DNA of 64,000 nt from NCBI GenBank assembly GCA_023269675.1, contig JAHFSX010000013.1:1-64000 (forward strand), written 5' to 3'. The position numbers and the translations under genes are program-made. Below are positions 3,867 to 41,834 of the stretch, one piece after another; positions within the stretch are counted from its first letter, which is position 1, and every line of letters starts with the position of its first letter. Source of the DNA: Verrucomicrobiota bacterium. GTDB lineage: Bacteria > Verrucomicrobiota > Kiritimatiellia > RFP12 > UBA1067. A model generated the notes under the pieces. The model did not search any database. It saw only the letters and a list, made by a program, of their open reading frames with translations, and was not told where the DNA came from.

Positions 3867-3871
3867 TTCTC

Positions 3872-7840: not shown

Positions 7841-8076
7841 GGGTGCGATTCAGTTTCGTTGACACTGAGTCGCACCCAGGAGCATTCAGGAGTTAGGATT
7901 GAGGAGTTGGAAGCGCGGAAGTCCCTGAAAACAGGGCGTTCGACAAGGAGGAACCCTTCCGCGAACAACCGTTTCTTGAGGCACGACGTTTGACCTCATT
8001 TTGAAGACGCGAACACGGACTCTCGAGCAGGGCACGAACACGTTCGCTGCCACGGCATTGCAACTCCTAGCTCCTT
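7841..8076 (+). repeat. 250-bp dispersed repeat, copy 1
   Basis: This segment is near-identical over most of its length to 37607-37856 and, reversed, to 30941-31199. It begins with a hairpin of the form GGTGCGATTCAG ... CTGAGTCGCACC, continues through a small CCCTGAAAACAGGG hairpin, and contains shared blocks such as CGAACACGGACTCTCGAG. It ends in AACTCCT-like words. Similarity holds in all frames, so conservation is at the DNA or RNA level rather than of a protein. It lies upstream of the BspA-like gene. Confidence 0.8.
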
Positions 8077-15075: not shown

Positions 15076-15888
15076 ATGAAAAAGACACTCGCAGGATTGG
15101 GGCTCTGTCTGTTGGCGGCGGTCACGTGCGGGGCGGCGGAAGCGCCCTTCACGCTGGCGCTGCAGGCCTACACGTTCAAGGACCGCACGATGGTCGAGAC
15201 CATCGAGACGGCCAAGCGGCTGGGGTTCAAGGCCATTGAGCTGACGTCCGTGCAGCAGCTGGGCGGCGCGTTCAAGGGATCGGTCAAGTACTCCGACATG
15301 TCGCCCGAGACGGTCACGGCGGTGCGGGCCTACCTCGACGGCTGCGGGCTCCAGGTGCGGAGCTACGGCGTGGTGAACGAGAAGGACGAGGCCGGCTGGC
15401 GCAGGCAGTTCGAGTTCGCGCGGGCGCTGGGGATCGGCATGCTGCTGACCGAGCCGCCGCCCGGGCAGCTGCCGCTGATCGACCGGCTGGCGCAGGAGTA
15501 TAAGATCCGCGTCCACCTCCACAACCACGCCAAGACCAGCCCGTGGTGGGATCCGGCGTTCATGGCGGCCCAGGTCGCGGCGTGCAGCGAATGGGTCGGT
15601 GCGGGCGCGGACATCGGCCACTGGGTTCCGGCGGGCGTCGATCCCGCCGAAGGCATCCGTCAGCTGGCCGCGTCGCGCGTCTTCGCGCTGCACTTTGTGG
15701 ACGTGAACAAAGACGGCAAGCCCGTCCCTTACGGCACGGGCGTCGGCAAGCTGGACAAGGTGTTGGAAACGCTGAAGGCCAAGGGCGCTCCGGTCATGCT
15801 CACCTGCGAGTACGAGCAGTGGGACGACCAGACGGAAGCGAACGTCCGCGCCTGTGTCGCATGGTTCAACCAGCACGCGCTGAAATAG
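15076..15888 (+). CDS. Exported sugar phosphate isomerase/epimerase-like TIM barrel
   Basis: A 270-residue protein of the xylose-isomerase-like TIM-barrel superfamily. A Sec signal peptide (TLAGLGLCLLAAVTCGAAEA) covers about residues 1-22, so the mature enzyme is periplasmic. Barrel phrases include LALQAYTFKDRTMVETIETA at the start, RVHLHNHAKTS near residue 145 and MLTCEYEQWD near 240; His, Asp and Glu residues of this type normally hold a divalent metal. The family isomerises, epimerises or dehydrates sugars and inositols. It lies between two Gfo/Idh/MocA oxidoreductases, and such pairs often act on the same keto-sugar intermediates. The ATG at 15076 follows GGAGAGAG. Confidence 0.85.
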   Translation: MKKTLAGLGLCLLAAVTCGAAEAPFTLALQAYTFKDRTMVETIETAKRLGFKAIELTSVQQLGGAFKGSVKYSDMSPETVTAVRAYLDGCGLQVRSYGVVNEKDEAGWRRQFEFARALGIGMLLTEPPPGQLPLIDRLAQEYKIRVHLHNHAKTSPWWDPAFMAAQVAACSEWVGAGADIGHWVPAGVDPAEGIRQLAASRVFALHFVDVNKDGKPVPYGTGVGKLDKVLETLKAKGAPVMLTCEYEQWDDQTEANVRACVAWFNQHALK

Positions 15889-15917
15889 GTGTTCACTTGA
15901 GACTTGCAGGCCAAAGC

Positions 15918-16985
15918 GTGATCTCCAGCACCATTCCTGACCGGAGCGACATTCGCGCGCGCATCGCCGCGTTGCCGAGAAGCAAGACCAGCGGACGCCT
16001 CGGGGAGGCGTCCCTACCCCTCCGCGCGTGTGCGGCGCTCGTTTTACTGTATGTGGTTCCCTTCTGCCACGCGCAAGCCAACATGGACAAGCCGGAGGTG
16101 TGGATGATGCCGCCCGGCAACGAGGGCCGCAGTTTCCGCGAGCTGTCCGGGCAGCCGGAGGCCTGGCAGGAGACGCGGTCGCTGATCCACGTGCTGGGCT
16201 GCACCGACCTGCAGACCCAAAAACTCTTCACCGATGACGAGCTGCGGGGCTGGTTCGCGCTGATGAACGGCTGGGGGCTCAAGTTCGGCGTGGAGGTCGG
16301 CGCGATCAAGGAGTGGGGCCTGACCGGCGCGAAGACCTTCGCCGCCGAGCGCCCGCTGTGGGAGCGCGTGCAGCGCCTCGGCGGCAAGATTTACGCCGTG
16401 GCCATGGACGAGCCGCTGGTGTGCTGCCGCCAGCACATCCGGCAGACCGACGCGTACGCCGTGCAGGAGACGGCCAACTACATCGCGCTCGTGCGCCAGC
16501 ACTTTCCGGACGTGCGGGTCGGCGACATCGAGGCGTATCCCTCCATCCCCCTGCCCGATCACATCTGGTGGATCGAGGCGCTGAACAAGCGGCTGGCGGA
16601 GATGAAGGTGCGCGGGCTCGACTTCTACCGGCTCGACGTGGACTGGGCCGCGTTTGTGGTGAGAGACCAGTGCTCGTGGCGGGATGTGAAGAAGATCGAG
16701 CAGGCATGCCGGAAGCGCAACCTGCCGTTCAGCCTGATCTACTGGGCCTCCGGGCTGCCCGCGATGCAGCGCAAAGGCCTGGCCGACGATTCGACGTGGT
16801 ATACGGGCATCATGCAGCAGGGCTACGACTACGCGTTCGTGGGCGGCGCGCCCGACCAGGTTGTCATCGAAAGCTGGGTGCAGGCGCCCGCGCGCGTCCT
16901 GCCCGAGACCGGCGAGTTCACCTTCACCCGCTCGGTCCGCGACTTCGTGAAGAAGTTTGTTCAGGCGAAGCAGGCATCACCTTAA
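15918..16985 (+). CDS. Secreted protein of unknown family, possible TIM barrel
   Basis: About 355 residues. The mature part starts near QANMDKPEVWMMPPG. Phrases such as LKFGVEVGAIKEWG, YAVAMDEPLVCC and VRGLDFYRLDVDWAAF alternate strands and helices as in a TIM barrel, and conserved-looking Asp and Glu at strand ends suggest a glycosidase-like site, but I cannot name a family. The start is uncertain. A hydrophobic signal core (CAALVLLYVVPFCHA) lies in frame, yet the only nearby upstream start candidates are GTG at 15918 and a TTG near 15972, and the codons between come partly from a REP palindrome (15993-16017). The next ATG (16083) would drop the signal peptide. It lies within the sugar-oxidation cluster, 18 bp before the second Gfo/Idh/MocA gene. 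Confidence 0.65.
   Translation: MISSTIPDRSDIRARIAALPRSKTSGRLGEASLPLRACAALVLLYVVPFCHAQANMDKPEVWMMPPGNEGRSFRELSGQPEAWQETRSLIHVLGCTDLQTQKLFTDDELRGWFALMNGWGLKFGVEVGAIKEWGLTGAKTFAAERPLWERVQRLGGKIYAVAMDEPLVCCRQHIRQTDAYAVQETANYIALVRQHFPDVRVGDIEAYPSIPLPDHIWWIEALNKRLAEMKVRGLDFYRLDVDWAAFVVRDQCSWRDVKKIEQACRKRNLPFSLIYWASGLPAMQRKGLADDSTWYTGIMQQGYDYAFVGGAPDQVVIESWVQAPARVLPETGEFTFTRSVRDFVKKFVQAKQASP
15993..16017. repeat. REP palindrome inside the start region of a gene
   Basis: GGACGCCTCGGGGAGGCGTC followed by CCTAC: a 9-10 bp stem with a GTAG foot when read on the minus strand. It lies in frame in the signal-peptide region of the preceding entry and would encode GRLGEASLP there. Confidence 0.75.
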
Positions 16986-17003
16986 CCAGGAGCAAGACCC
17001 GCC

Positions 17004-18377
17004 ATGAAACCATCGCTCACGCGCAGAACCTTTCTCAGGCAGGCCGCAGTCGCGACCGCCGCGTTCCAGGTCGTGCCGGGCCACGTGCTCGGGCTCAACG
17101 GCCAGACGCCGCCGAGCCGCAAGCTGAACGTCGCCGGCATCGGCGTCGGCGGCATGGGCGGACAGAACATCAAAAACTGCTCCGACGAGAACATCGTCGC
17201 GCTGTGCGATGTCGACAGCACCTACGCCGCCCACACCTTCAAGGCGAATCCGGGCGCGAAGGTCTACACGGACTTCCGCGAGATGCTCGAAAAGCAGAAG
17301 GAGATCGACGCGGTGGTCATCGCCACGCCCGACCACTCCCACGCCGCGATCGCCATGGCCTGCATGCGGGCCGGCAAGCACGTCTACGTGCAGAAACCGA
17401 TGGCGTACTCGGTGTTCGAGGCGCGCACCATGACCGAAGCCGCCCGCGAACACAAAGTCATCACCCAGATGGGCAACCAGGGCCGCTCGGGCGACGGCGT
17501 GCGCATGGTCTGCGAGTGGCTCTGGAGCGGCGCCATCGGCAACGTGCGCGAGGTCCACGCCTGGACCAACCGCCCGGTCTGGCCGCAGGGCGTCGAAATC
17601 GGACGGCCCGCCGAGACGCCCCCCGTGCCGGCGGGCTTCGACTGGGACCAGTGGCTCGGCCCCGCGGCGTTCCGCCCCTACCATCCCGCTTACCATCCGC
17701 GCAGCTGGCGCGCGTGGTGCGACTTCGGCACGGGCTCCCTGGGCGACCTCGGCTGCCACATCCTCGACTGCGTCTACTGGGGCCTGAAGCTGAAGTACCC
17801 CGCCAGCGTCGAGGGCAACATCTCCACGTACTGGGGCGATTTCTGGAAGAAGACCGAGCCGAAGAACGAGAACTTCCCGCGCTCTTCCATCGTGCGCTAC
17901 AAGTTCCCCGAGCGCGAAGGCCTGCCGCCGCTTTCACTCACGTGGTGGGACGGCGGACTCATGCCGCCCAGGCCCGAAGAGCTGGAGGAGGGGCGCCAGA
18001 TGGGCGACTCCGACGGCGGCGTGCTCTTCATCGGCGACAAGGGCAAGCTGATGTGCGGCTGCTACGGAAGAAGCCCGCGCCTCATCCCGGAGACCAAGAT
18101 GAAGGAGTTTCAGCGGCCGCCCAAGACGCTCGAGCGCGTTCCCGGCGGCGAGAACGGCCACGAGAAAAACTGGCTGCAGGCCATCAAGGACGGGAAGCCC
18201 GCCATCTCCAACTTCGACTACGCCGGGCCGTTCGCCGAAATGGTGCTGCTGGGCAACCTCGCCGTGCGCTTCCCCGAGCGCCGCCTGCTGTGGGACGGGC
18301 CGAACATGAAGGTCACCAACGACGCCGAGGCCCAGGCGTTCGTCAAGCGCGACTACCGCGCGGGCTGGACGCTGTAG
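17004..18377 (+). CDS. Tat-exported Gfo/Idh/MocA family oxidoreductase
   Basis: A 457-residue paralogue of the 13430-14851 enzyme. The twin-arginine motif TRRTFLRQ (residues 6-13) starts a Tat signal; no lipobox follows, so it is probably soluble in the periplasm. The Rossmann motif AGIGVGGMGG is at about 44-53. The catalytic-lysine motif is QKP rather than EKP (HVYVQKPM, near residue 131), a variant known in this branch. FGTGSLGDLGCHILDCVYWG marks the substrate domain. It starts 18 bp after the previous gene, so the two are likely co-transcribed. Two differently exported members of one family in one cluster suggest two successive oxidation steps or two related substrates. Confidence 0.9.
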   Translation: MKPSLTRRTFLRQAAVATAAFQVVPGHVLGLNGQTPPSRKLNVAGIGVGGMGGQNIKNCSDENIVALCDVDSTYAAHTFKANPGAKVYTDFREMLEKQKEIDAVVIATPDHSHAAIAMACMRAGKHVYVQKPMAYSVFEARTMTEAAREHKVITQMGNQGRSGDGVRMVCEWLWSGAIGNVREVHAWTNRPVWPQGVEIGRPAETPPVPAGFDWDQWLGPAAFRPYHPAYHPRSWRAWCDFGTGSLGDLGCHILDCVYWGLKLKYPASVEGNISTYWGDFWKKTEPKNENFPRSSIVRYKFPEREGLPPLSLTWWDGGLMPPRPEELEEGRQMGDSDGGVLFIGDKGKLMCGCYGRSPRLIPETKMKEFQRPPKTLERVPGGENGHEKNWLQAIKDGKPAISNFDYAGPFAEMVLLGNLAVRFPERRLLWDGPNMKVTNDAEAQAFVKRDYRAGWTL

Positions 18378-18410
18378 AACAGTCACAACTGTTGACAGGG
18401 TCCATGTTTG

Positions 18411-18485
18411 AACACGAAGACACGAAGTCACAAAGAAGAGACATCTTAGAACACGGCGTTCTTTGTGTCTTTGAGTCTTCGTGTT
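18411..18485. repeat. CACGAAGA-word inverted repeat without a gene
   Basis: The left arm (18411-18437) begins AACACGAAGACACGAAG; the right arm (18459-18485) is its reverse complement with three mismatches in 27 bases. The loop is only 21 bp. It matches the arms around the GxxExxY gene near 49 kb. The right arm ends some 25 bp before the start of the SIS-domain gene, so a transcript across it would form a strong hairpin close to that gene's ribosome site. Confidence 0.75.
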
Positions 18486-18510
18486 GAAGAATTTAAAAAA
18501 GGAGAGAGAC

Positions 18511-19119
18511 GTGGAGAATGACATGAAGCAGGCTTTGACGGCCTACGCGGCGGACACCGGCGCGCGGCTGATGCGGACGGATTTCGGGAAACTGGCGGAG
18601 ATCGGCGGCCTGCTGCTCAAAGCCAAGGCCGAGGGCCGGACCGTCTTTCTGATGGGCAACGGCGGCAGCGCGGCCACGGCGTCGCACGTGACCAACGACC
18701 TGGTGAAGGGCTGCCGCGCGGGCGACACGCCGGGGTTCCGGGCCTTCTGCCTGAGCGACTCCAACGCGCTGGTGACCTGCCTGGCCAACGATTTCTCCTA
18801 CGAGGAGATCTACTCCATCCTGCTGCGCACCTACGCCAAGGCGGGCGACGTGGTGCTGGCGTTCAGCGGCAGCGGCAACTCGCCGAACATCCTCCACGCG
18901 CTGGCCACGGCGCGCGAGATGGGCGTGACGACCGTCGGCTTCGGCGGCCGCGACGGCGGCCTGATGAAGGCGCTGTGCGACCTGGTCCTGATCGCGCCGA
19001 CCGACTCCATGGAGATGCTGGAGGACATGCACCTGGTCTATTTCCACGACCTCGTCTGCGCGCTGCGTCCGGGACTGGCCAAGCTGGCCGGGGTGGAGGT
19101 CGCGTGCGGCAAGTGCTGA
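18511..19119 (+). CDS. SIS-domain phosphosugar isomerase, GmhA-like
   Basis: A 202-residue cytoplasmic sugar-phosphate isomerase of the SIS fold. GTG at 18511 is chosen as the start because AAGGAG lies six bases upstream; ATG at 18523 is the alternative. The sugar-phosphate loop is FLMGNGGSAATASH (about 38-51), like the NGGSA of sedoheptulose-7-phosphate isomerase, and a second binding loop is LAFSGSGNSPN (about 111-121). The length suits GmhA. I do not see all metal and catalytic residues of true GmhA, so the substrate may be another ketose phosphate. It is followed by a ROK kinase, which could supply its phosphorylated substrate. Confidence 0.82.
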   Translation: MENDMKQALTAYAADTGARLMRTDFGKLAEIGGLLLKAKAEGRTVFLMGNGGSAATASHVTNDLVKGCRAGDTPGFRAFCLSDSNALVTCLANDFSYEEIYSILLRTYAKAGDVVLAFSGSGNSPNILHALATAREMGVTTVGFGGRDGGLMKALCDLVLIAPTDSMEMLEDMHLVYFHDLVCALRPGLAKLAGVEVACGKC

Positions 19120-19121
19120 GC

Positions 19122-19208
19122 GCGGACGGTTCGGGGAACCGTCCCTACCAAATCGCGTCAGGTCACATGACGCATGTGCTGGTAGGGACGCCTCCCCGAG
19201 GCGTCCGC
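19122..19208. repeat. REP pair (BIME-like) between SIS and ROK genes
   Basis: Two palindromes in inverted order: GGACGGTTCGGGGAACCGTC ending in CCTAC (19122-19149), then GTAGGGACGCCTCCCCGAGG with its stem (19181-19208). Between them lies a third small palindrome around TCACATGACG. Both main stems have the GTAG foot at the inner side. Confidence 0.8.
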
Positions 19209-19225
19209 AGGAAGTGTGGTGAACA

Positions 19226-20146
19226 GTGCTCATTGGCGCGATAGACGGCGGCGGCACCAAGGTGCTGACCGCGGTGATGACCGGGTCCGGCGAGGTTCTG
19301 GCCCGGCGGCAGCGGTCGATCCCGACGGCCGACCACAGGGCTTATTTCGCGCAAGGCGCCGAAATGCTCGGCGAGTGCGCGGCCGAGGCGGGCGTGCGTC
19401 TCGCAGAGCTTGCGGGCGTGGGGGCGAGCCTGCCCGCGATGACCGACGGCCGCGACCGCGTGCTGGGGTCGCCCTCGGCGGGCTGGGGCGAGTTCACCGT
19501 GCGCCCCCTGCTGGTGCCGGCGCTGGGGATGGGGACCGAGCGCGTCTTCATCGAGAACGACGTGAACGCCTGCGCGCTGGCGGAGCTGCGCTTCGCGCAC
19601 GGCGGCGATAACTTTATCTGGATGACCGTCAGCACGGGGATCGGCGGCGCGGTGGTGGCTGACGGGCGGCTCGTGCGCGGCGCGGGCTTCTGCGCGGGCG
19701 AGATCGGCCACGTGAAGGTGGAGTTCGCGACGCCGCGGGCGTGCGGCTGCGGGGGCTGCGGGTGCCTGGAGGCGCATGCCTCGGGCACCGCCATCGGGCG
19801 GCTGGCGCGCGCGGCGGGGCTGGGGGATGCCGACGCGAAGCGCGTCGAGCAGCTGGCGAGGAAAGGCGACCCGGCCGCGGCGACCGTGCTGGCGCAGGCG
19901 GGACGCTACATCGGACGCGCGCTGGCGATGACGTCCAACGTGCTGAACCCGGAGCGCGTCTACATCGGCGGCGGCGTGGCGCACGCGCTGGACCTGCTGC
20001 TGCCGTCGATCCGCGAGGAATTTGAGCGCGGCGCCTTGCCGCAGTGCCGGAACGTCGTGATCGAGCAGACCCGCCTGGGATACGAGGCGGCGCTGTTCGG
20101 CGCGGCGGCGGTGTGCCTGGACGGCCTGGCTGGGAAAGGCTGCTAG
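19226..20146 (+). CDS. ROK family sugar kinase
   Basis: A 306-residue cytoplasmic kinase that uses ATP to phosphorylate a hexose or amino sugar. The phosphate loop IDGGGTK is at residues 6-12, the sugar-binding ENDVNACALAE near 111-121, a second loop STGIGGAVV near 136, and the ROK zinc motif has cysteines at 173, 175, 178 and 180 (CGCGGCGCLEAH). AGEIGHVKVE contains the conserved His that helps bind zinc. The start is GTG at 19226. The zinc motif makes it a kinase-type ROK protein rather than a repressor, and no DNA-binding domain is present. The preceding SIS isomerase and following FAD oxidoreductase suggest entry of an unusual sugar into central metabolism. The substrate is not determined. 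Confidence 0.88.
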   Translation: MLIGAIDGGGTKVLTAVMTGSGEVLARRQRSIPTADHRAYFAQGAEMLGECAAEAGVRLAELAGVGASLPAMTDGRDRVLGSPSAGWGEFTVRPLLVPALGMGTERVFIENDVNACALAELRFAHGGDNFIWMTVSTGIGGAVVADGRLVRGAGFCAGEIGHVKVEFATPRACGCGGCGCLEAHASGTAIGRLARAAGLGDADAKRVEQLARKGDPAAATVLAQAGRYIGRALAMTSNVLNPERVYIGGGVAHALDLLLPSIREEFERGALPQCRNVVIEQTRLGYEAALFGAAAVCLDGLAGKGC

Positions 20147-20197
20147 CCTTTTCGGTGATACCGAACCTGTTTGGAGTAAACGCAGCTCATTGGCAAG

Positions 20198-20263
20198 GTA
20201 GGGCGAGCACTCCGTGCCGCCGCACCCGGTCGATGCGAGGCGGCGCAGGAGCGCTCGCCCTAC
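20198..20263. repeat. REP element, GTAGGGCGAGC type
   Basis: GTAGGGCGAGCACTCCGTGC starts the left arm; the right arm ends GAGCGCTCGCCCTAC. About 15 bases separate the arms. The same type recurs at 25763-25871 and 50370-50435. It lies between the ROK kinase and the FAD oxidoreductase. Confidence 0.8.
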
Positions 20264-20316
20264 CGCGTTAAGTCTATTCAGTTCTCACGACAATGCCATA
20301 TAGGGGAGGATCGCGG

Positions 20317-21747
20317 ATGCAAGCTGAACTGAACCGTCGGGAGTGGATGAAAGCCACGGGGCTGATCGCGGGGGCCTGGGCCGCCGGCCGGGCCGGCGCG
20401 GCGGAACCGGACGCTTCCTTACCGCAGGGCAAGGGCGAGGTGGTCTTCCAGCGCAAGCTCGCGGTCAAATATGACGTGGACGTGTTTATCGCCGGCGGCG
20501 GGCCGGCGGGCACGGCCGCCGCCGTCGCGGCGCGCAGCCAAGGCGCGAGCGTTTTCCTGGCGGAGGCGCACACCTGCCTCGGAGGAATGGGCACGGCGGG
20601 CCGCGTGCCGGTCTTCATGCCCGTGAGCGACGGGGTCAACTTCCTACCCGGCGGCTACGGGCGGCAGGTGCTGGACCGCCTGTCGAAAGAGAAGGCGCTG
20701 CCGGGCCCGGCCACCGACGTCGAAGCGCTGAAACGCGTCTACGACGCGCTGGTGGGCGAGTCGGGCGCGGCCTTCAGCTTCTACACGACCCTCAGCGACG
20801 TGGAGGCGCGGGACGGCCATGTCCGCTATGTGGCCTGCTCCGCGCCGGGCGGGATGTTCGCGGTCAAGGCCAAGGTCTACGTGGACGCCACGGGCAACGG
20901 CGACCTCGCGGCGCGGGCGGGCGCGGCGTTCGAGAAGGGCGATGGCCACGGGCGTCTCATGCCGGGCACGCTCTGCAGCGTGTGGAGCGGCATCGACTGG
21001 AAGACGTGGGAGGCGAGCCGTCCCCAAGGTCCGCAGCCCGACGGCCACATGCTGGAGAAGGCCTTTGCGGACGGCGTGTTCAGCGTGCAGGACCGCCATC
21101 TGACGGGCATGCACAAGATGGGCGACGGTCTCGGCGGCGGCAACATCGGCCACACCTTCGGCGTGGACGGCACGGACGAGTCCTCGCTGACCGCGGCGCT
21201 GGTGACCGGACGCAAGAGCATGAAGGAGTACGAGCGCTATTACCGCGGGTACCTGAAAGGGTTTGAGAACGTCCGGCTCGTGCAGACCGGCTCGCTGCTG
21301 GGCGTGCGCGAGACGCGGCGCATCACGGGGGACTACGTGCTGGGGGTGGAGGATTACAAGCAGCGCGCCGTCTTTGCCGACGAGATCGGGCGCTACGCGT
21401 ATGCCATCGACATCCACCCGCAGACCACGGACAAGGCGAGCTACGAGAAGCACCGCAAGGAGTTCGACCAGGAGTTCCGCTACAACAAAGGCGAAAGCTA
21501 CGGCATCCCCTACCGCATCCTGACGCCGCGCGGGCTCGACAACGTGCTCGTGGCCGGACGGTGCGTCAGCACCGACCAGCTGGTGCACGGCTCGCTGCGC
21601 GTGATGCCCGGCTGCTTCATCACGGGACAGGCGGCCGGCGTGGCGGCGGCGATGGCCGCGCAAACCGGTGGCTCGGTCCACCGACTTGACGTGAAAGCCT
21701 TGCAGGGCAGGCTCAAAGCCTTCGGCGCGTATCTGCCGAATGCGTGA
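20317..21747 (+). CDS. Tat-exported FAD-dependent oxidoreductase
   Basis: A 476-residue flavoprotein of the FAD-dependent oxidoreductase group (PF12831-like) common in PVC bacteria. The N-terminus has a twin-arginine-like motif (NRREWMKATG) and a hydrophobic stretch, so export by Tat is likely. The dinucleotide motif VFIAGGGPAGTAAA lies at about 57-70, a second cofactor region is YVDATGNGDLAARAG near residue 190, and the C-terminus has the FAD-contacting phrase VLVAGRCVSTD followed by GQAAGVAAA. The substrate is unknown. GGGGAGGAT precedes the ATG at 20317. It closes the sugar-oxidation cluster and converges on the SMC gene across a REP pair. Confidence 0.87.
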   Translation: MQAELNRREWMKATGLIAGAWAAGRAGAAEPDASLPQGKGEVVFQRKLAVKYDVDVFIAGGGPAGTAAAVAARSQGASVFLAEAHTCLGGMGTAGRVPVFMPVSDGVNFLPGGYGRQVLDRLSKEKALPGPATDVEALKRVYDALVGESGAAFSFYTTLSDVEARDGHVRYVACSAPGGMFAVKAKVYVDATGNGDLAARAGAAFEKGDGHGRLMPGTLCSVWSGIDWKTWEASRPQGPQPDGHMLEKAFADGVFSVQDRHLTGMHKMGDGLGGGNIGHTFGVDGTDESSLTAALVTGRKSMKEYERYYRGYLKGFENVRLVQTGSLLGVRETRRITGDYVLGVEDYKQRAVFADEIGRYAYAIDIHPQTTDKASYEKHRKEFDQEFRYNKGESYGIPYRILTPRGLDNVLVAGRCVSTDQLVHGSLRVMPGCFITGQAAGVAAAMAAQTGGSVHRLDVKALQGRLKAFGAYLPNA

Positions 21748-21756
21748 GGTCTAAAG

Positions 21757-21808
21757 GTAGGGACGCCTCCCCGAGGCGTCCGCGGACGGTTCGGGGAACC
21801 GTCCCTAC
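21757..21808. repeat. Complete REP pair (BIME-like) between convergent genes
   Basis: GTAGGGACGCCTCCCCGAGG with its stem partner is followed directly by GGACGGTTCGGGGAACCGTC and CCTAC. The unit therefore starts and ends with inverted GTAG feet and holds two different palindromes. It fills most of the gap between the FAD oxidoreductase and SMC genes and may end both transcripts. Confidence 0.85.
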
Positions 21809-21824
21809 CGTACCACGCAAAAAA

Positions 21825-24800
21825 TCAATCCTGGTCCGACTCGGGGACAATCGGCAGCTCTTCTTGGGGCTCCGGCTCCACGGCGGCGGCCTTCTTCTTG
21901 CGCGAACGCTTAACCTTGCCGTCCTCCTCGACGGTCGGGGCGGCTTCGGGCGAGCCCACGGCCAGCTCTTTGACGCCGATCTCTTTCAGGCGCATCGAGA
22001 CGATCTTCGAGATGCCCTTCTCCTGCTGCGTCACGCCGTAGACGATGTCCGAGCCCGCGATGGTGTGCTGGTTGTGCGTGATGATCAGGAACTGCGAGTG
22101 CGTCAGGAAGTCCTTGAGCGCCTGCACGAAGCGGCCGATGTTGCTGTCGTCCAGCGCGGCGTCGAGCTCGTCGAGCATGCAGAACGGCGCGGGCTTGATC
22201 ATGAAGATCGCGAAGAGCAGGCTCACCGCCGTCATGGTGCGCTCGCCGCCCGAGAGCAGGGTCACCGTCTGCGGGCGCTTGCCGGGCGGGCGCGCGATGA
22301 TGTCGATGCCGCACTCGAGCGGGTCCTCGGCGTTCTCCAGCAGCACCAGCTTGGCCTGGCCGCCGTTGAACAGCTTCATGAACATCTTTTCGAAGTTGGC
22401 GTTGGCCTGCTCGAAGGTGGCCTGGAACATCTCGCCCGACTTCTTGTTGATCATCGTGATCAGCTCAAGAATCTGCGTCTTCGACTTCAGCAGGTCCTCC
22501 TCCTGCGCCTTGAGGAAGGTGTAGCGCTCCTCGAGCTCCTTGTACTCCTCGATGGCCACGAGGTTCACCGGGCCGAGCGCCACAATCTCGGAGTTGAGCT
22601 TGGCCGCGCGCGCCTCGATCTCGGGCACCGGCGGATGCTGCCCCCCCTCCCAGACCGGGTCGGCGTGAGCGACGAGCTCATCGACCGAGAGCCCGTACTC
22701 GTTGGAGATGTGGTCGATCAGATTCTGCCGCTTCATGCGCGACTCGGCGATGTCGATCTCGGCCTTGTTCTTGTCGTCGCGGGCGTTGTCGAGCGCGCGG
22801 CGGCGCTCCGAAAGCGTGGCGTCGGTCTTTTCGAGCTCGCGCTGGCGGGCGGCGCGCTCGCGGCGCGTCTCCTCGATCTTCAGGTGCAGCGTCTCGGCGG
22901 CGATGCGCATGGGGTCGAGGCCGGCCTCCAGCGTCTCGATCTCCTGCGTCAGGCGGTCGATGCTCTCGTCGTAAGACGACACCCCGCGGCTGCGGCCCTG
23001 GATCGTGCGGTCCAGCTCGTCGATGCGCGTCTGCACGGCCTCGGCCTGCGAGCCCGCGTGCTCGATCTGCTGCGAGATGCTCGACACCTGGATGCGGCAC
23101 TCGGTGAGGTTCTGGCTGAGCTCGCTGTAGACGCTCTCCAGCTCGTGCAGGAGCGTCGACTTGTCCGCGGTCTGCTCCAGCAGCTGGTTGCGCGTGTAGA
23201 TGAGCTCCTGCAGCTCCTCGGTGAGCGAAACGCGCGTCTCGTCGTCGCCCGCGGTCAGCTCCGTCAGCTCGCCCAGCTCGCCCGCCACGACGTTGAGCCG
23301 GGCGCGGGCGCGCTCCGCGTCGCGGCTGACGGACTGATACTCGCCCTCGGACTGCGCGGCCTTGCGGCGGTTGTCGTCCAGCTCCAGCCGCGTCTGGGCG
23401 ATCAGCAGCGTCAGCTCGTTCGTGCGGGCGTTCAGCGCCTCCAGGCGGCGGCGGTGCGCCGTGATCTTCTCTTCGAGCGTCGCGAGCTGCTCGGACGTGT
23501 CGGCGACCAGCATGCGGCGCGCGAGCGGGCTGGAGACCTGGTTGTCGGGCATCCAGAGTTCGACGCAGCCGTCGGGATGGAAAATCGCGCCGTCGCGGGT
23601 GACGACACAGCAGCCGGCGGGCAGCGGCTGCGGCACCGCGTCGAGCGTGTCGGCGAGAAACACGTGGCCGAGCAGGCGGCGGGCGGCTTCGGCGAAGTCG
23701 TCGGCCACCGACACCTGGTCCAGCAGCGGCACCAGGCCCTGGGGCGGCGCGCACGGCGTCCGCTCCGCGCCGGCGGCGGACACGAGGCGCGTGGCGGCGT
23801 GGCTGCCTTGGGCGAGCAGCCGCACGATCATCTGGCGCGCGGCGGCGGCGTCGCGCACGACCACGGCATCCAGCCAGGCGCGCAGCGCGGCCTCCAGCGC
23901 GAGGCGCATGTTTTGCGGCGCGTCGAACTTCTCGGCGAGCGGGCCCAGCACGGCCTGCGCCTCAAGCCCCAGCGGGTTGCCCGGGTCGAGCAGCTGCCTC
24001 GAGCCCGCGGCGTACTCGTCGGAGGCCTCGCTCTTGTCCGTCAGCAGGTCGATCTGCGCGCGCTTGGCGGCCGCCTCGGACTGCATCTTGGAGGCCTCGT
24101 CCTGCACGGTGCGCAGTTCGGAGGTGGTGTCGGCCCGCTCCTCCTCCAGCGTCTCGAAGCGCTCGAGCACGCTCTCGGCATTCGCGCGGTAGGTGTCGAG
24201 GCGCGCCTTGACCTCGGCGCGGGTCTGATCGACCCCCTCGAGGTTCTCCAGCACCTGGCGGTGCTCGGACGAAAGGCGGTCGCGCTTCATCAGCAGCTCG
24301 CGCTGGCGCGCCTCCATCTCGGAGAGCGTCTGCTGGACCTGGGCGGTGCGCCGCTCGCAGTCCACCGAGCGCTGCCGGTCCTGCTGCAGCTGCGTGCGGG
24401 TCTGGTCGATCTGGATCTTGTGCGCGTCGAAGCGGGCCTGGGCCTCCTCCAGCTTCGCGCGCTCGACCCCGGCGGCCTGCTGCATGAGCAGGCGCTTCTG
24501 GGCCAGCGACTCGATCTGCATGCGCAGCTGCTCGATCTGCGCCTGGGTCTCGGAGATCTCGCGGTTGTCGCGCTCGGCCCACGCGCGGTACTCGGCGATG
24601 CGCTGCTCGTTGACCTTGATGACCTCTTGGGCGCGGATGTAGCGGTTGTCCGCCTGCGCGGCCTGCTCGGCGAGCGCGGCGATGCGCTCCTCGGTCTCAT
24701 GGATGAGGCTGTGGATGTGCGACGATTCGGCCTCGGCCTCGGCCACGAACTCCTGGTGCGAAACCAGCTGCTCGTTCAGCGCCTGGATCGAGGTGTCCAG

Positions 24801-25529
24801 CTCGCGGACGCGGATGTCCAGCGCCGCCAGGCGCCGGCGCGTGAGGAAAATGTCGAGGCCGCGCAGCTCGTCGCGCAGCTCCTTGTACTTCTGCGCCTTG
24901 CCGGCCTGGCGCTGCAGCGTGCCGATCTGGCGCTTGACCTCGCGGATCACGTCGGCGAGGCGCAGCAGGTTGGCGTCGGTCTGCTCGATCTTGCGCAGGG
25001 CCTCCTTGCGGTCGGCCTTGAACTTGGTGATGCCGGCCGCCTCCTCGAAGACCGCGCGGCGGTCCTCGGGCTTGGACGAGAGGATCGCGTCGATCTGCCC
25101 CTGGGCCATGACCGAATACGAGGTGGTGCCGATGCCCGTGCCCATGAAGAGGCGGTGGACGTCCTTCAGGCGGCAGGGGTTCTTGTTGATGAAATACTGG
25201 CCCTCGCCCGAGCGGAAGACGCGGCGGGAGATGGTGACCTCGTTGAAGTCGTTGCCCAGGATGCCTTCGCAATCGGCGAAGGTGATGGCGACCTCGGCCA
25301 TGCCGAGCGGCTTGCGGGTGTCGGTCCCGTTGAAAACCACGTCCGGCATCTTGGCGCAGCGCAGGGCCGTCGGGCGCTGTTCGCCCAGCACCCAGCGGAT
25401 CGCGTCGGAGACATTGCTCTTGCCGCAGCCGTTGGGGCCCACGATCGCGATCATGCCCGGCTCGAACTGCAGCTTGGTCTTGTCGGCGAAACTCTTGAAG
25501 CCGGTTATTTCAATCTGTTTTAGATACAC
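21825..25529 (-). CDS. smc: Chromosome segregation protein SMC
   Basis: A 1234-residue ATPase of the SMC family that, as a dimer with ScpA and ScpB, compacts and helps separate chromosomes. The N-terminal head starts YLKQIEITGFKSFAD and has Walker A GPNGCGKS at residues 31-38. Long coiled coils flank a hinge (about 530-660, with ALLRAWLDAVVVRD-type sequence). The C-terminal head has the signature LSGGERTM near 1090 and Walker B CMLDELDAALDD near 1113. A Lys-rich then Glu/Pro-rich tail of about 40 residues follows. The start is GTG at 25529, preceded by GAGG, because the protein family begins at this point; longer frames add unrelated residues. No scpA or scpB is nearby. Confidence 0.96.
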   Translation of the reverse strand: MYLKQIEITGFKSFADKTKLQFEPGMIAIVGPNGCGKSNVSDAIRWVLGEQRPTALRCAKMPDVVFNGTDTRKPLGMAEVAITFADCEGILGNDFNEVTISRRVFRSGEGQYFINKNPCRLKDVHRLFMGTGIGTTSYSVMAQGQIDAILSSKPEDRRAVFEEAAGITKFKADRKEALRKIEQTDANLLRLADVIREVKRQIGTLQRQAGKAQKYKELRDELRGLDIFLTRRRLAALDIRVRELDTSIQALNEQLVSHQEFVAEAEAESSHIHSLIHETEERIAALAEQAAQADNRYIRAQEVIKVNEQRIAEYRAWAERDNREISETQAQIEQLRMQIESLAQKRLLMQQAAGVERAKLEEAQARFDAHKIQIDQTRTQLQQDRQRSVDCERRTAQVQQTLSEMEARQRELLMKRDRLSSEHRQVLENLEGVDQTRAEVKARLDTYRANAESVLERFETLEEERADTTSELRTVQDEASKMQSEAAAKRAQIDLLTDKSEASDEYAAGSRQLLDPGNPLGLEAQAVLGPLAEKFDAPQNMRLALEAALRAWLDAVVVRDAAAARQMIVRLLAQGSHAATRLVSAAGAERTPCAPPQGLVPLLDQVSVADDFAEAARRLLGHVFLADTLDAVPQPLPAGCCVVTRDGAIFHPDGCVELWMPDNQVSSPLARRMLVADTSEQLATLEEKITAHRRRLEALNARTNELTLLIAQTRLELDDNRRKAAQSEGEYQSVSRDAERARARLNVVAGELGELTELTAGDDETRVSLTEELQELIYTRNQLLEQTADKSTLLHELESVYSELSQNLTECRIQVSSISQQIEHAGSQAEAVQTRIDELDRTIQGRSRGVSSYDESIDRLTQEIETLEAGLDPMRIAAETLHLKIEETRRERAARQRELEKTDATLSERRRALDNARDDKNKAEIDIAESRMKRQNLIDHISNEYGLSVDELVAHADPVWEGGQHPPVPEIEARAAKLNSEIVALGPVNLVAIEEYKELEERYTFLKAQEEDLLKSKTQILELITMINKKSGEMFQATFEQANANFEKMFMKLFNGGQAKLVLLENAEDPLECGIDIIARPPGKRPQTVTLLSGGERTMTAVSLLFAIFMIKPAPFCMLDELDAALDDSNIGRFVQALKDFLTHSQFLIITHNQHTIAGSDIVYGVTQQEKGISKIVSMRLKEIGVKELAVGSPEAAPTVEEDGKVKRSRKKKAAAVEPEPQEELPIVPESDQD

Positions 25530-26133
25530 GGAAACCTCAAAAAACGGCCACGGCCGCCACAGCGTCAGAAACAGCGGGGAAAACGGCCCTTGCTCGACCT
25601 CAGAAATGACTTGTTTATTACCATAATCCAGGGTCCAGTGAAAGCCTAAACAGGGACCGCACGCGGGCCGCGGGTGCATGATCGGTTTTGTGTTAAGGGC
25701 GAGTTATTTTGTTTTTCAGGCCCCGACGGCAAGGGTACGCAGACGGCGCGTGCGAAGCACCGGTAGGGCGAGCGCTCCGCGCCGCCGTTGCGTCCGGCTT
25801 CGCTGCCGCCAGAACTGAGGGACGCGCTACGTGTAGGGCGCGCGGGCGGCGGCGCGGAGCGCTCGCCCTACCCGTTACGCATAAATCCCCGAGCAACACA
25901 GGAAATCCCCACCTCTGCCTGGACATCGCATTCCCTTCGTTGCTTCGCGCTCTTCAGTCCTTCGTGGTGATGATTCGAATGCGATCTCAAAAAAAGCCCC
26001 GTGCGCCCCGACCTCCGAGTTGGCCGCTTGACGCAGGCTGGGAGAACGGGTACGCTCACAAGGTAGTGCTGGAGTTCAAACGTGGGGGATCCGGGTGTCC
26101 GTGGCACACCTTAGTTCAAGGGGGAGTGAAAGC
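25530..26133. other. Intergenic region with nested REP
   Basis: About 600 bp between divergent smc and beta-helix genes. Besides the REP element (25763-25871) it contains an AT-richer stretch near 25610-25720 that could hold the smc promoter, a pair of partial repeats around CGCATTC and GAATGCG (25928 to 25983), and GGGGGAGTGA just before the next gene. No gene is supported. Confidence 0.55.
25763..25871. repeat. Large nested REP element
   Basis: The outer arms are GTAGGGCGAGCGCTCCGCGC (from 25763) and its complement ending CTAC at 25871. Inside lies another palindrome around CGCTACGTGTAGGGCG (about 25824-25840) with its own GTAG. The whole segment can fold as a branched hairpin of about 109 bp. 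Confidence 0.78.
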
Positions 26134-28332
26134 GTGAAGAAAATCGGGCTTTTGTCGCTGCTGGCCGGCTCCGCGTTCGGGGCGCAGACGGTTCTGTATG
26201 TCAACCCGCAGTCCGGCTGCGATGAAGACCCAGGCACGGCCGCGAAGCCGTACGCCTCGCTTGACAAGGCCCGGGACACGATCCGCGCCCTGAAGAGGGA
26301 CGGCGCGTTTCCCGGGACGGGCGTGACCGTCGAGCTGACCGGCACCTTCGCGATGCCCACCCGCGCGTTCGCGCTGGCCGCGGAGGACGGCGGCGCGGGC
26401 CCGGACGCCCCCGTGGTCTACCGGGCCTCAAAAAGCGGCGCGCTCCTCACCGGCGGGCACGTCCTGCCGGCAAGCGGCTTCCGGGCGGTGACCGACGCGG
26501 CGACGCTGGCCCGTCTGCCGGAGCCGGCGCGCGGCAAGGTTGTCGCCTTCGATCTGAAATCCGTGGGGCTGTCCGCGTTGCCGCCGCTGCCGGACAAGTT
26601 CAGCGGCTGGAGCGAGATGGAGGTCTTCAGCGGCGGCCAGGCGATGCGGCTCGCCCGCTGGCCGAACGCGGGCTGGGCGGAAATCGCCAAGGTCATCGAC
26701 CGCGGCGTCAAGCCCGTCGACAAGGCCACGGGCGAATGGGAGGTCGGCTACAAGGGCGGCACGTTCGAGTACGCCGAGGAGGCCCCCTCCCGCTGGAACG
26801 TCGCGAAGGGCATCTGGATGAACGGCTTCTGGTGCCACGACTGGGCCAACGAGACGCTCAAGATCGGCGCCATCGACACGGAGAAGAAACAGATCACGGC
26901 CGCCGCCGTCCACACCTACGGCATCGGCAACTCCTCCAAGTGGCATACGGCCAAACGCCGCTACTACGTGTTCAACCTGCTGGAAGAGCTCGACGTCCCC
27001 GGCGAGTGGTACGTCGACCGCGAGGCCGGCGTGCTGTACTTCTACCCGCCGGGCGGCGACCTGGGCAACGTCGTGCTTTCCGTCCAGAAGAAGCCGCTGA
27101 TCCAAATCGCCCAAGCCGGCAACCTCAGGCTGGACGGTCTGGCCTTCCAGTACAGCACGGGCAAAGCGGTCGCGGTCGACGGCTGCGAGAACGTCGTCCT
27201 GCAGAACCTGCGCGTGTCCAACCTCACGACTGACGGCATCAGCGTCAGCGGCGGGAAGGCCTGCGGCCTGGACCGCTGCGAGGTGTCCGGCGTCGGCGGC
27301 ACGTGCGTATCCATATCCGGCGGCGACCGCAAGTCGCTGGCCGGCTGCGGCCATTTCGTCACGAACTGCCGCCTGCACCACAGCGGCCGGCTGCAGCGGA
27401 CCCAAGGCAAATGCCTGAGCTTCAGCGGCGTGGGCATCCGCGTGGCGCACAACCTGATTTACGACTCCCCCTACATCGCGGTGGTCTACGGCGGCAACGA
27501 GAACCTCTTCGAGTACAACGAGGTCCATTCCGCGATGATGGAGAGCGGCGACGGCGGCGGACTCTACACCGGGCGGGACTGGGGCTCGCAGGGCAACATC
27601 GTCCGCTACAACTACCTTCACCACTTCGGCAAGCCGGGCGTGGAGTGGCAGAAGGCGCGGGGGCTGAACCCCGACTACGAGCCGCTGGGCGAAAACGTCA
27701 TGGTCATGGGCGTCTACCTGGACGACTGCGACAGCGGCGACACGGTCAGCGACAACCTTTTTTACCGCACGGGCTGGTCGGCCTTCGTCGGCGGCGGACG
27801 CTACAACACGATCAGCAACAACCTGTTCATCGAATGCACGTCCGCGCTGCACCTGGACGACCGCGGCCTGAAGCGTGCCCGTCCGGGCGAGGGCACCAAG
27901 GACGGCTGGGATCTGCTGGCCAAGCTGCAGGCGTTCAACTTTCAGGCGCCGCCCTGGAAGGACAAATACCCGCACCTGGTCAACATCATGCAGGACGAGC
28001 CGAAGCTGCCGCTGCACAACGTCTTCAGCGAAAACGTGGCGATCAACTGCGAGCGCTTCCTGCAGATGCACGGCAGCCTCAAAGCCACCACGCTGCCGCG
28101 CCTGGATTTCCACGGCAACCTCGTGTTCGGCCCGGTCAACAAAGGGGACGCGGAGTCTTTCCCGCAGACGGAGGACGGCCGGAAGCGCGCCGACTTCCGC
28201 TCCGAGACTCTGCCGGACAGCGCCTCCCCGGACGCGGACGGCTTCAAGGTGCAGGACAGCGCCGAGTTCAAGCGGCTGGCCCCCGGGTTCAAGCGCATCC
28301 CGCTCGAGAAGATCGGCATCGCCGGACAGTGA
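26134..28332 (+). CDS. Secreted right-handed parallel beta-helix protein
   Basis: A 732-residue exported protein with a parallel beta-helix fold, typical of polysaccharide lyases and hydrolases. The start is GTG at 26134 after GGGGAGTG, giving signal peptide KKIGLLSLLAGSAFGAQ. The mature N-terminus, TVLYVNPQSGCDEDPGTA and PYASLDKARDTIRAL, is the usual opening of PbH1-type proteins. Helix coils run from about 320 to 640, with phrases such as LDGLAFQYSTGKAVAVDGCE, NVVLQNLRVSNLTTDGISVS and GGGRYNTISNNLFIECTSAL. An inserted beta-sandwich (about 90-300) precedes the coils. The substrate is not evident. The next gene, 175 bp downstream, also encodes a large secreted protein, so both may act on the same glycan. 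Confidence 0.88.
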   Translation: MKKIGLLSLLAGSAFGAQTVLYVNPQSGCDEDPGTAAKPYASLDKARDTIRALKRDGAFPGTGVTVELTGTFAMPTRAFALAAEDGGAGPDAPVVYRASKSGALLTGGHVLPASGFRAVTDAATLARLPEPARGKVVAFDLKSVGLSALPPLPDKFSGWSEMEVFSGGQAMRLARWPNAGWAEIAKVIDRGVKPVDKATGEWEVGYKGGTFEYAEEAPSRWNVAKGIWMNGFWCHDWANETLKIGAIDTEKKQITAAAVHTYGIGNSSKWHTAKRRYYVFNLLEELDVPGEWYVDREAGVLYFYPPGGDLGNVVLSVQKKPLIQIAQAGNLRLDGLAFQYSTGKAVAVDGCENVVLQNLRVSNLTTDGISVSGGKACGLDRCEVSGVGGTCVSISGGDRKSLAGCGHFVTNCRLHHSGRLQRTQGKCLSFSGVGIRVAHNLIYDSPYIAVVYGGNENLFEYNEVHSAMMESGDGGGLYTGRDWGSQGNIVRYNYLHHFGKPGVEWQKARGLNPDYEPLGENVMVMGVYLDDCDSGDTVSDNLFYRTGWSAFVGGGRYNTISNNLFIECTSALHLDDRGLKRARPGEGTKDGWDLLAKLQAFNFQAPPWKDKYPHLVNIMQDEPKLPLHNVFSENVAINCERFLQMHGSLKATTLPRLDFHGNLVFGPVNKGDAESFPQTEDGRKRADFRSETLPDSASPDADGFKVQDSAEFKRLAPGFKRIPLEKIGIAGQ

Positions 28333-28342
28333 TCTCCGGGGC

Positions 28343-28440
28343 GGGGACGGTTCCCCGAACCGTCCGCCAGTCTCTTTGTCGATCGCCCGGCACCTGTACC
28401 CGCGCACCCCGCTGCGGACGCCTCGGGGATGGCGTCCCTG
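28343..28440. repeat. Degenerate REP pair
   Basis: GGACGGTTCCCCGAACCGTC (from 28345) and, about 70 bp on, GGACGCCTCGGGGATGGCGT. The second stem has mismatches and the GTAG foot is missing at both outer ends, so this looks like a decayed copy of the pair seen whole at 21757-21808. Confidence 0.7.
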
Positions 28441-28506
28441 CCGATGGAACAACCGTCCTCATACGGTTTCAAGCCTCAACCGATTGCAGAAAAGAAGGGG
28501 TGACGT

Positions 28507-30927
28507 ATGCGTCTGCTCGAAATGATGTGTGGCGCCGCGCTGGCTGCGGGCGTGTCTTTGGCGGCGCCGGACGGAGCCGTGGTCAAGCGGGTGATCGCCG
28601 CCGAGCGCAATGCCGCGCTCCAGCCGATGGCACCCGCACAGGCCCGGCCTTACGGCAAGGGATTCACGCGCGACGGCGAGACCTACGTGTGCGACAACGG
28701 CGCGGACGCCACGGCGCGGCGCGGCGTATCGTGGACGATCGACCTGAACCAGAGCGTGGCCGCGCCGGTGACCGCCTCGGCGTGGGCCAAGGCCGAAGGC
28801 GTGGAGGGATCACCCGACAGCGGGTTCTCGCTCTATCTCGATCTGCAGTACACGGACGGCACGCCGCTGTGGGGACAGGCCGCCGCGTTCGAGACCGACT
28901 CCGGAGCGGGCTGGCACAACCGCGAGGTGATCGTCACCCCCGACAAGCCGATCAAGCGCGTGAGCTGCTACCTGCTTTTCCGCAACCGCGCCGGCAAGGC
29001 GTTATTCAAGGAGCCGCGCTTCGGCGTCCTGGCATCGGACGGCATGACGCGCTTCGACGGGATCGTGACCGAACAGGTTCAGCCTGCCGTGGCGGGATTC
29101 CTGCTGCGCGACGTGGGCATGAACTCCGACTTTGTGGCGCTCGGCAGCGAGGCCTTGGGCATACGGCTGACAACCCGGATGCGGCGCGGGCCGGGAGCAA
29201 CCTTCTACGACGTCACGCTGGAAGACCGGACAGGCAAGGACCGCGCGCTGACGCTCGCCTACACGCTGCCGCTGGAGAGCGAGGGGCTCACGTGGTTCCA
29301 TCACCCGCGGCGGGCCGTCCCCCTGGCCGGGTCGAAAAGCGAGATCATGAACACGACGCGGCACGCCGTCGGCGCCAGCGGGCTCCTGTCGCGCTACCCC
29401 TTCGGCGCCGTGGCGGCCGCGGGACAGGGCCGCGCCATCGGCCTCGATCCCGCGACGCCGCTCGTCTTCCGCACCGGCTGCCAGCCGGTCACGCGCGAAC
29501 TCTTTCTGGCGTGCGACATCGGACTCGCGCCGGAGAAGCCCGCCGCGACGTTCAGCTTCTGCGTGTACGACTTCGAGGCCGCCGCGGGCTTCCGCGGCGC
29601 GCTGGCGCGTTACTACGCGCTCTACCCCGACGCCTTTACGACGCGCATCAAGGAGCAGGGCGTCTGGATGCCCTTCGCGGCGGTCAGCAAAGTCGCGGGC
29701 TGGGAGGATTTCGGCTTCCGCTTCAAAGAGGGCGACGGCGAGACCGCGTGGGACGACGCGCACGGCCTCCTGACCTTCCGCTACACCGAGCCGATGACGT
29801 GGTGGATGGCGCTCAAAGGCGACGGGCCGCGCACGCTGGCGCGCGGCGCGGAGGAGGCCCGGCGGCTGGCGGCGGCCGGCGACAGGGCCGCGCAGGCCTG
29901 GGCGAGCAGCGCGTTCGCCGACGAGAAGGGCCGGGCACCAGGCCGCGTGCTGGACACGCCGTGGTGCAACGGCGTGGTCTGGAGCATGAACTGCGCGCCG
30001 GGCGTGGCGGGCGCGGTGACCGACTTCACGAACAAGTGGAACGCCGCCTACATCGAGAAGCAGTATGGCGCGTCGCGCAAGGCCAGCTGCGACGGCGAGT
30101 ACATCGACTCGGCCGAGGCGTATGTGACCGAGGAGCTGAATTTCCGGCGCGAGCATTTCGCGGGCGCGGAGCGTCCGCTCTGCTTCGCGCCGGGTTCGCG
30201 CAGGGTGGGGATCTACAAAGGCACGACCGGTTTCGAATACGTGCGGGCGCTCGAGAGGGAGATGCACGCGCGCGGCCGCTTCATGATGGCCAACAGCACG
30301 CCGTCCAGCTGGTTCTGGCTCGCCCCCCTGCTGGACGTGATGGGCACGGAGACCGACTGGAACCATGGTGGCAAGTGGAGCCCCCTGTCCGACGAGGAGC
30401 TGCTCTACCGGCGCGCGCTGTGCAAAGGCAAGCCCTACTGTTTCCTGATGAACACCGACTTCTCGAAGTTCCCTTACGAGGCATCCGAGAAGTTCATGAA
30501 GCGGGCGCTGGCCTACGGCATGTTCCCCGGCTACTTCAGCGCCGACGCGTCGACCGGCCACTATTTCACGCGGCCCGAACTGTACGACCGCGACCGGCCG
30601 CTCTTCAAGAAGTACATTCCGCTGTGCAGGTTAGTCGCGGAGGCGGGCTGGGAGCCGCTCACGGGCGCGGTCTCCGACAACGATGCGGTTATTGTAGAGC
30701 GGTTCGGCTCGCCGCCGGGGCCGTGCTACCTGACCGTCTACAATCTGGCCGACACGCGGCAGAGGGCCGTGCTGACGCTGACAGAGCTGACCGCGGGCGG
30801 CCCCTGCCGCGAGCTGGCCGCCGGCGGCGCGATCGCCTGGCGGGAGAAGCGGACGCGCCTCGAGCTCGAGGCGGGCGACGTGCGGGTGATCGAGATCCGG
30901 GGTGCGCCGCCGGTTACGGCCAAATAG
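28507..30927 (+). CDS. Large secreted protein, candidate glycoside hydrolase, family not recognised
   Basis: An 806-residue exported protein. A short signal peptide (MMCGAALAAGVSLAAPDG) opens it. Residues about 60-200 look like a jelly-roll sugar-binding domain (GVSWTIDLNQSVAAPVTASA; FSLYLDLQYTDG). Residues about 200-370 are beta-rich. From about 370 the chain looks like a TIM barrel with FGFRFKEGD, GEYIDSAEAYVTEELNF and TDWNHGGKWSPLSDEELLY; the acidic residues in CDGEYIDSAEA and GTETDW sit where catalytic acids often lie. The last 70 residues form a small beta domain. The order suggests a retaining glycosidase, but no family signature is certain. GAAGGGGTGACGT precedes the ATG. The beta-helix protein is just upstream. 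Confidence 0.75.
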   Translation: MRLLEMMCGAALAAGVSLAAPDGAVVKRVIAAERNAALQPMAPAQARPYGKGFTRDGETYVCDNGADATARRGVSWTIDLNQSVAAPVTASAWAKAEGVEGSPDSGFSLYLDLQYTDGTPLWGQAAAFETDSGAGWHNREVIVTPDKPIKRVSCYLLFRNRAGKALFKEPRFGVLASDGMTRFDGIVTEQVQPAVAGFLLRDVGMNSDFVALGSEALGIRLTTRMRRGPGATFYDVTLEDRTGKDRALTLAYTLPLESEGLTWFHHPRRAVPLAGSKSEIMNTTRHAVGASGLLSRYPFGAVAAAGQGRAIGLDPATPLVFRTGCQPVTRELFLACDIGLAPEKPAATFSFCVYDFEAAAGFRGALARYYALYPDAFTTRIKEQGVWMPFAAVSKVAGWEDFGFRFKEGDGETAWDDAHGLLTFRYTEPMTWWMALKGDGPRTLARGAEEARRLAAAGDRAAQAWASSAFADEKGRAPGRVLDTPWCNGVVWSMNCAPGVAGAVTDFTNKWNAAYIEKQYGASRKASCDGEYIDSAEAYVTEELNFRREHFAGAERPLCFAPGSRRVGIYKGTTGFEYVRALEREMHARGRFMMANSTPSSWFWLAPLLDVMGTETDWNHGGKWSPLSDEELLYRRALCKGKPYCFLMNTDFSKFPYEASEKFMKRALAYGMFPGYFSADASTGHYFTRPELYDRDRPLFKKYIPLCRLVAEAGWEPLTGAVSDNDAVIVERFGSPPGPCYLTVYNLADTRQRAVLTLTELTAGGPCRELAAGGAIAWREKRTRLELEAGDVRVIEIRGAPPVTAK

Positions 30928-35302: not shown

Positions 35303-35378
35303 GTAGGGACGGTTCCCCGAACCGTCCGCCGGTCCTGAGCCTTGCCGAAGGGCGGACGCCTCGGGGAGGCGCCCCCAC
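35303..35378. repeat. REP pair upstream of the SDR gene
   Basis: GTAGGGACGGTTCCCCGAAC with its stem partner, then 20 bases, then GGACGCCTCGGGGAGGCG and a degenerate CCCCCAC foot. This is the same pair of palindromes as at 21757-21808, in the other order. Confidence 0.78.
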
Positions 35379-41663: not shown

Positions 41664-41834
41664 GCGCCAAACGGCAGGGACGCCTCCCCGAGGCGTCCGC
41701 AGGGCATGGCGCGCACGGACCGGCGGACGGTTCGGGGAACCGTCCCTACCGGAAAACGGACATCCCCTGAGAAATGTCCCTCCCGTCAAAGCGCCAAACG
41801 GCAGGGACGCCTCCCCGAGGCGTCCGCAGGGCAT
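41664..41834. repeat. REP cluster with a 44-bp direct duplication
   Basis: Three palindromes lie here: GCAGGGACGCCTCCCCGAGG-type at 41674 and 41801, and GGACGGTTCGGGGAACCGTC at about 41724. The block around the first and third, starting GCGCCAAACGG and ending CGCAGGGCAT, is repeated identically at 41664-41707 and 41791-41834. The GTAG foot is GCAG in both of those copies. Confidence 0.8.

Follow-up and report, generated by a model that had tools for sequence, protein, structure and literature searches.

The repeats that most resemble those described here are the REP elements of the GTAG super-family. As presented in the text of Di Nocera et al. (2013; PMC3733652), these elements have a 5' GTAG foot, a 6-13 bp stem and a short loop, their sub-families are related by complementary stem changes, and they form head-to-head dimers 20-100 bp apart. 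In the REPtrons of the same account, RAYT genes are flanked by cognate repeats, and one genome can hold several families with family-specific REPtrons. The repeats of the present genome share each of these features, a likeness to the 24 families of the super-family that is one of description and not of consensus. Members have already been reported in the PVC bacteria O. terrae and R. baltica, and the text of that paper does not name the lineage of our host, which is probably related to Kiritimatiellae. In REPINs, an inverted pair of REPs with its linker appears to be the replicating unit, according to Bertels and Rainey (2011; PMC3116915), and the same arrangement recurs here. For the TnpAREP enzymes of other bacteria, cutting at CT and a guide role of the foot have been described (PMC8266576); the E. 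coli enzyme, for which 4ER8 is the structure bound to a REP hairpin, has W94, Q95, E100, H101 and R104 at the corresponding foot-contact positions (PMC6006769).

Palindrome families in the window

We analysed a window of 64,000 nucleotides at the start of contig C65, which is 154.7 kb long and belongs to a genome of 6.3 Mb in 85 contigs (G000). The window has a GC content of 67%; perfect-hairpin scans there returned many chance matches, and only families with a shared foot stood out. A pattern scan within set limits found three core families of GTAG-footed palindromes, with 15 intact and four degraded copies (Table 1), which bears out the initial annotation of a GTAG-footed palindrome family across this stretch. 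Seven intact and all four degraded copies belong to family 1 (GTAG-GGACGNNTC-CCC-GANNCGTCC, in which the 9-bp stem is perfect and the loop is CCC), four intact copies to family 2 (GTAG-GGCG-A-GCRC-TCC-GYGC-CGCC, where a single A of the stem stays unpaired) and four to a 26-nt array unit (GTAGGGGCGGACGTCTCGGACGCCCC), enclosed in a tandem array of four 113-nt repeats at 46330-46787. The intact copies are short palindromes with an unpaired 5' GTAG. The same annotation had counted at least four different cores, and several do exist, but as two stem variants each of families 1 and 2 plus the array unit; it had rightly seen decay near 28343, where a degraded family 1 REP lies, and had mistaken the foot at 41674 (GCAG) for GTAG, which its neighbour at 41725 has intact.

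Table 1. REP elements of the window and RAYT genes of the same genome
Feature	Position	Strand	Remarks
Family 1 REP, CC/GG core, GTAG foot	15993-16017	-	pattern scan
Family 1 REP, GT/AC core, GTAG foot	19124-19148	-	pairs with 19182, feet inside
Family 1 REP, CC/GG core, GTAG foot	19182-19206	+	partner of 19124
Family 2 REP, A/T core, GTAG foot	20198-20221	+	inverted partner at about 20240-20263
Slightly diverged inverted partner of family 2 REP 20198, GTAG foot present	20240-20263	-	
Family 1 REP, CC/GG core	21757-21781	+	heterodimer with 21784, feet outside
Family 1 REP, GT/AC core	21784-21808	-	heterodimer partner of 21757
Family 2 REP, G/C core	25763-25786	+	pattern scan
Family 2 REP, G/C core	25848-25871	-	inverted partner of 25763
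Degraded family 1 REP, GT/AC core, foot GCGG	28341-28365	+	pattern scan
Family 1 REP, GT/AC core, GTAG foot	35303-35327	+	pattern scan
Degraded family 1 REP, CC/GG core, foot GTGG	35354-35378	-	pattern scan
Family 1 REP, CC/GG core, degraded foot GCAG	41674-41698	+	pattern scan
Family 1 REP, GT/AC core, intact GTAG foot	41725-41749	-	neighbour of 41674
Family 1 REP, CC/GG core, degraded foot GCAG	41801-41825	+	pattern scan
Four GTAG-footed hairpins of the array unit (46351, 46463, 46576, 46689)	46351-46714	-	separate family
Family 2 REP, A/T core	50370-50393	+	diverged inverted partner up to 50437
RAYT-B gene	contig C85; L006 7570-8037		four family 1 dimers (GC, TT cores) upstream, one TT REP downstream
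RAYT-A gene	contig C8; L005 7615-8088	-	family 2 REP about 60 nt upstream
RAYT-C gene	L004 6835-7440	-	sits in arrays of the third GTAG family of the genome

Single hairpins of families 1 and 2 fold as drawn (z -3.2 to -4.9), and that of the array unit folds more weakly (z -2.1). The perfect stems of family 1 differ from E. coli REPs in this respect and resemble those of group 3, and the unpaired A of family 2 recalls the bulge that E. coli y/z REPs need (PMC8266576). Several REP sites sit just beyond blocks conserved with relatives, a comparison confined to the window that bears on a possible extragenic position. A search of the window for Rfam families gave no match.

Other repeats are present in the window. 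A 234-nt repeat that is not of the GTAG type occurs at 7842-8075 and 37607-37840, the two copies being 93% identical. The intergenic motif TGAACACGAAGACACGAAGTCACAAAGAAGAGA is found at 3870, 18409 and 48877, and another, the simple-sequence-like CAACTCCTAAATCCTAAATCC, at 31129, 37826 and 47869.

Copy number and the dimeric unit

Genome-wide work on G000 rested on pattern searches and on selected stretches of sequence. Exact counts were 103 for family 1, 31 for family 2 and 12 for the array unit, to which 4 near copies of the latter are added; the initial annotation had called for counts of this kind. A further GTAG family, GTAG-TA-CCGGCTTCAGCCGG, has 90 copies in the genome and gave no match in the pattern scan of the window. 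Reversed control patterns had 0 matches across G000. Because the copy counts stand against no control match at all, chance is excluded as a source of the palindromes.

Among the 100 family 1 copies listed, the two variable stem pairs were complementary in 192 of 200 cells, whereas 2000 shuffles averaged 94 and never exceeded 125. These figures, like those for heterodimers below, count copies descended from one another and not independent events. Of the 100 copies, 93 have one of four cores (CC/GG, GT/AC, GC/GC and TT/AA); all four cores have the same foot, the lower stem GGACG and the loop CCC, and differ at the two middle base pairs. Four distinct complementary cores would be hard to obtain without selection on the hairpin.

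The frequent inverted pairing reported for the window extends to the genome, where the 100 listed copies form 38 close inverted pairs, 29 with their feet outside and most commonly with a spacing of 51 nt. All but one of these pairs (37 of 38) join different cores, against 27.4 expected from random pairing, and 0 of 20,000 shuffles reached as high a value. Mixed GC/CC dimers occur among them. Ten longer linkers, read from the GT or GC arm, begin with GCCGGTCC and end with GC, and are asymmetric; at L021, a dispersed CC/GT dimer and the RAYT-B dimers have the same linker except for a short deletion. Because nearly all pairs mix cores and linkers are shared, the unit of family 1 is a defined heterodimer, as in REPINs. 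It departs from the REPINs of Bertels and Rainey (PMC3116915) in that its arms carry different cores and its linker is asymmetric, with GCCGGTCC beside the GT or GC arm.

RAYT enzymes in the same genome

A profile search of G000 found three proteins over the cut-off of PF01797, each encoded within or beside GTAG palindromes of its own, and two of these REP families are those of the window. A flanked Y1 transposase is what the initial annotation had proposed looking for. G000 has eight matches to NF047646 (REP_Tyr_transpos, the model for REP-associated tyrosine transposases), and of the 115 genomes in its family 102 have at least one, so the absence of any Y1 or HUH enzyme that would have spoken against the idea is not observed. 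RAYT-A and RAYT-B both exceed the cut-off of 80 bits on this model (the two scores being 97.2 and 85.6 bits, E 8e-28 and 2.9e-24), and RAYT-C falls just below it at 79.0 bits. The enzymes are single-copy. RAYT-C belongs with the 90-copy GTAG-TA-CCGGCTTCAGCCGG family, and a search for an enzyme flanked by the array unit of the 46330-46787 type found none.

RAYT-A and RAYT-B have the HUH motif as MPDHVH, the catalytic Y and a WQ....DH..R motif at the foot-contact positions W-Q-D-H-R. An AlphaFold model of RAYT-B (pLDDT 91) is predicted to adopt the TnpAREP fold, with 4ER8 as its first-ranked structure match (E 1.3e-9, TM 0.70). The positions W94/Q95/[E or D]100/H101/R104 of E. coli TnpAREP (PMC8266576) are kept in these enzymes, together with its HUH and its Y; compared with that protein, RAYT-A and RAYT-B are shorter and nearer the subclass 2.5 motif (DH.H, WQ, YI..NP).

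The open frame of RAYT-B extends upstream through a REP dimer (L006 7441-7540), and its start is uncertain; 7570 was taken. Further RAYT-type genes of G000 have palindromes with a different foot around them: L129, whose open frame of only 93 aa is probably partial, has GGAG, L130 has TGTG, and L127 has no G-rich foot.

Origin of the palindromes

Together, these results make it very probable that the palindromes of the window are RAYT-associated REPs. With the same high confidence, we assign them to the GTAG superfamily of REP elements, most of them being arranged as REPINs (inverted pairs of the BIME kind), and consider them the non-autonomous substrates of Y1 HUH transposases (RAYT/TnpAREP) whose single-copy genes lie elsewhere in G000. 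RAYT-B is most likely the enzyme for family 1 and RAYT-A the enzyme for family 2. The initial annotation had envisaged one RAYT-like enzyme spreading the repeats: enzymes do lie beside matching repeats, but there are several, each with its own REP family, and that they spread the REPs is what we infer. By analogy with TnpAREP of E. coli and other bacteria, from which the CT cleavage site and the foot's role as a guide would carry over, a RAYT of G000 would bind the REP as single-stranded DNA through its 5' GTAG foot and hairpin, cut beside it through a 5'-phosphotyrosine link, putatively at CT, and rejoin the unit elsewhere, thereby copying or moving it into intergenic sites.

Short, GC-rich hairpins between genes could also be intrinsic transcription terminators or RNA-stabilising hairpins, amplified by selection for that role without an enzyme, and REPs of other bacteria do affect termination and mRNA stability (PMC3733652). 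We consider this origin very improbable. A terminator requires neither a fixed 5' GTAG foot nor inverted pairing nor a conserved linker, and the arrays around RAYT genes would be left unexplained. No T-run follows the REPs, and a terminator scan of 15500-29000 lists none of them (its 11 matches are themselves close to the shuffled mean of 7.8, sd 3.2); on these grounds their identity as terminators was rejected. Still slimmer is the chance that they are MITEs of an ordinary IS200/IS605 element or another insertion sequence and not of RAYTs. The Y1 enzymes of IS200/IS605 likewise depend on a 5' tetranucleotide as a guide when they read hairpins (PMC6006769), but the enzymes found here score 14.7 and 16 bits on the IS200 model against a cut-off of 55, pass the REP_Tyr_transpos model, are single-copy and have the RAYT contact motif WQ....[DE]H..R.

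A narrower doubt concerns which enzyme serves the CC and GT cores. These cores make up most of family 1 and adjoin no RAYT in G000, RAYT-B being flanked by GC and TT cores, so the family 1 REPs of the window could be relics of a lost RAYT, with the activity of RAYT-B limited to the GC/TT dimers beside it. G011, G013, G014 and G015 share the CC and GT cores, and the CC/GT population of G000 is therefore older than the genus; moreover, the REPs that flank the nearest RAYT of G011 have a different loop. Against such a loss, the CC and GT copies have the foot, the lower stem GGACG and the CCC loop of the RAYT-B REPs, with only two middle pairs varying among the four cores, and the common linker and the mixed GC/CC dimers tie them to the RAYT-B dimers. 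We therefore regard a lost enzyme as the less favoured although tenable account, and RAYT-B as the enzyme that probably serves the CC and GT cores today.

Relatives

Comparison with the 115 genomes of the same family showed up to 19 RAYT-type genes in a genome. Family 1, searched with the loop position free, occurs in 26 of 115 genomes, including 109 copies in the other genome of G000's genus; family 2 occurs in G000 alone, also the sole genome with RAYT-A, a close counterpart of which was sought across the 115 and found nowhere else. The four genomes with the closest relatives of RAYT-B all fall within the 16 that have at least 5 family 1 REPs (P 2.6e-4). Three others (G008, G014 and G015) have 22-48 family 1 REPs and no close RAYT-B relative, which may reflect incompleteness of these MAGs (81-84%) or enzyme loss.

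At one site, the junction at 19124-19206, the REP pair is filled in G011, of the same genus as G000, and empty in G010, of another genus in the family. In the G011 copy, a change in the stem of the second REP is compensated (GGACG/CGTCC to GGCCG/CGGCC). This distribution would fit arrival after the genera split or loss in G010. At 20198, 21757, 25763, 28341 and 15993, the neighbouring gene or contig differs in the relatives. A string resembling TGAACACGAAGACACGAAGTCACAAAGAAGAGA stands at the end of contig C34 of G011, where G000 has the REP of 20198.

Variation of the foot among RAYTs

We scanned the flanks of 123 non-redundant RAYT loci for any of the 256 tetramers followed by a hairpin. GTAG was the leading foot among the 79 enzymes that carry F-D-H (or V) (113 hairpins at 44 loci, 24-fold), and GGAG among the 22 with W-D-[T/R/V] (73 hairpins at 16 loci, 20-fold). 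A tree computed after removal of the motif columns places 17 of these 22 enzymes in a single clade (SH-aLRT 98), and in it a separate clade of 13 enzymes has mostly GTGG feet, which are already known from the RAYT/REP literature. Foot and residue 101 are associated in a 2x2 table (37, 1, 2, 14; P 5e-10), in which ancestry and function are inseparable because there are only three independent contrasts; a sign test on the tree, with 3 pairs, lacks power, and the contrasts score L216 as GGAG although its real foot is TGTA/GTAG. There is about an even chance that the RAYTs of Kiritimatiellae-like and Verrucomicrobia-like bacteria have diversified the foot they read, the 17-enzyme W-D-[T/R/V]-x-L-R clade (versus F-D-H-R-L-R) with GGAG and the 13-enzyme clade with GTGG; the guide tetranucleotide would then have switched in nature in step with residues whose counterparts in E. 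coli TnpAREP contact GTAG. The RAYT/REP papers searched, a set outside which Bertels 2017 and Messing 2012 fall, do not mention a GGAG foot in their text.

These data extend the partnership of RAYT and hairpin to a little-studied lineage and provide a natural collection of enzyme, foot and stem combinations. Should the foot have truly switched in the GGAG clade, exchanging a few residues would put to a direct test the model in which a guide tetranucleotide governs how REPs are recognised and cleaved.

Position 99 (W versus F) alone was rejected as the determinant of the foot: E. coli TnpAREP has the W99-type residue and reads GTAG. One enzyme with V at the position of residue 101 has a GTAG foot.
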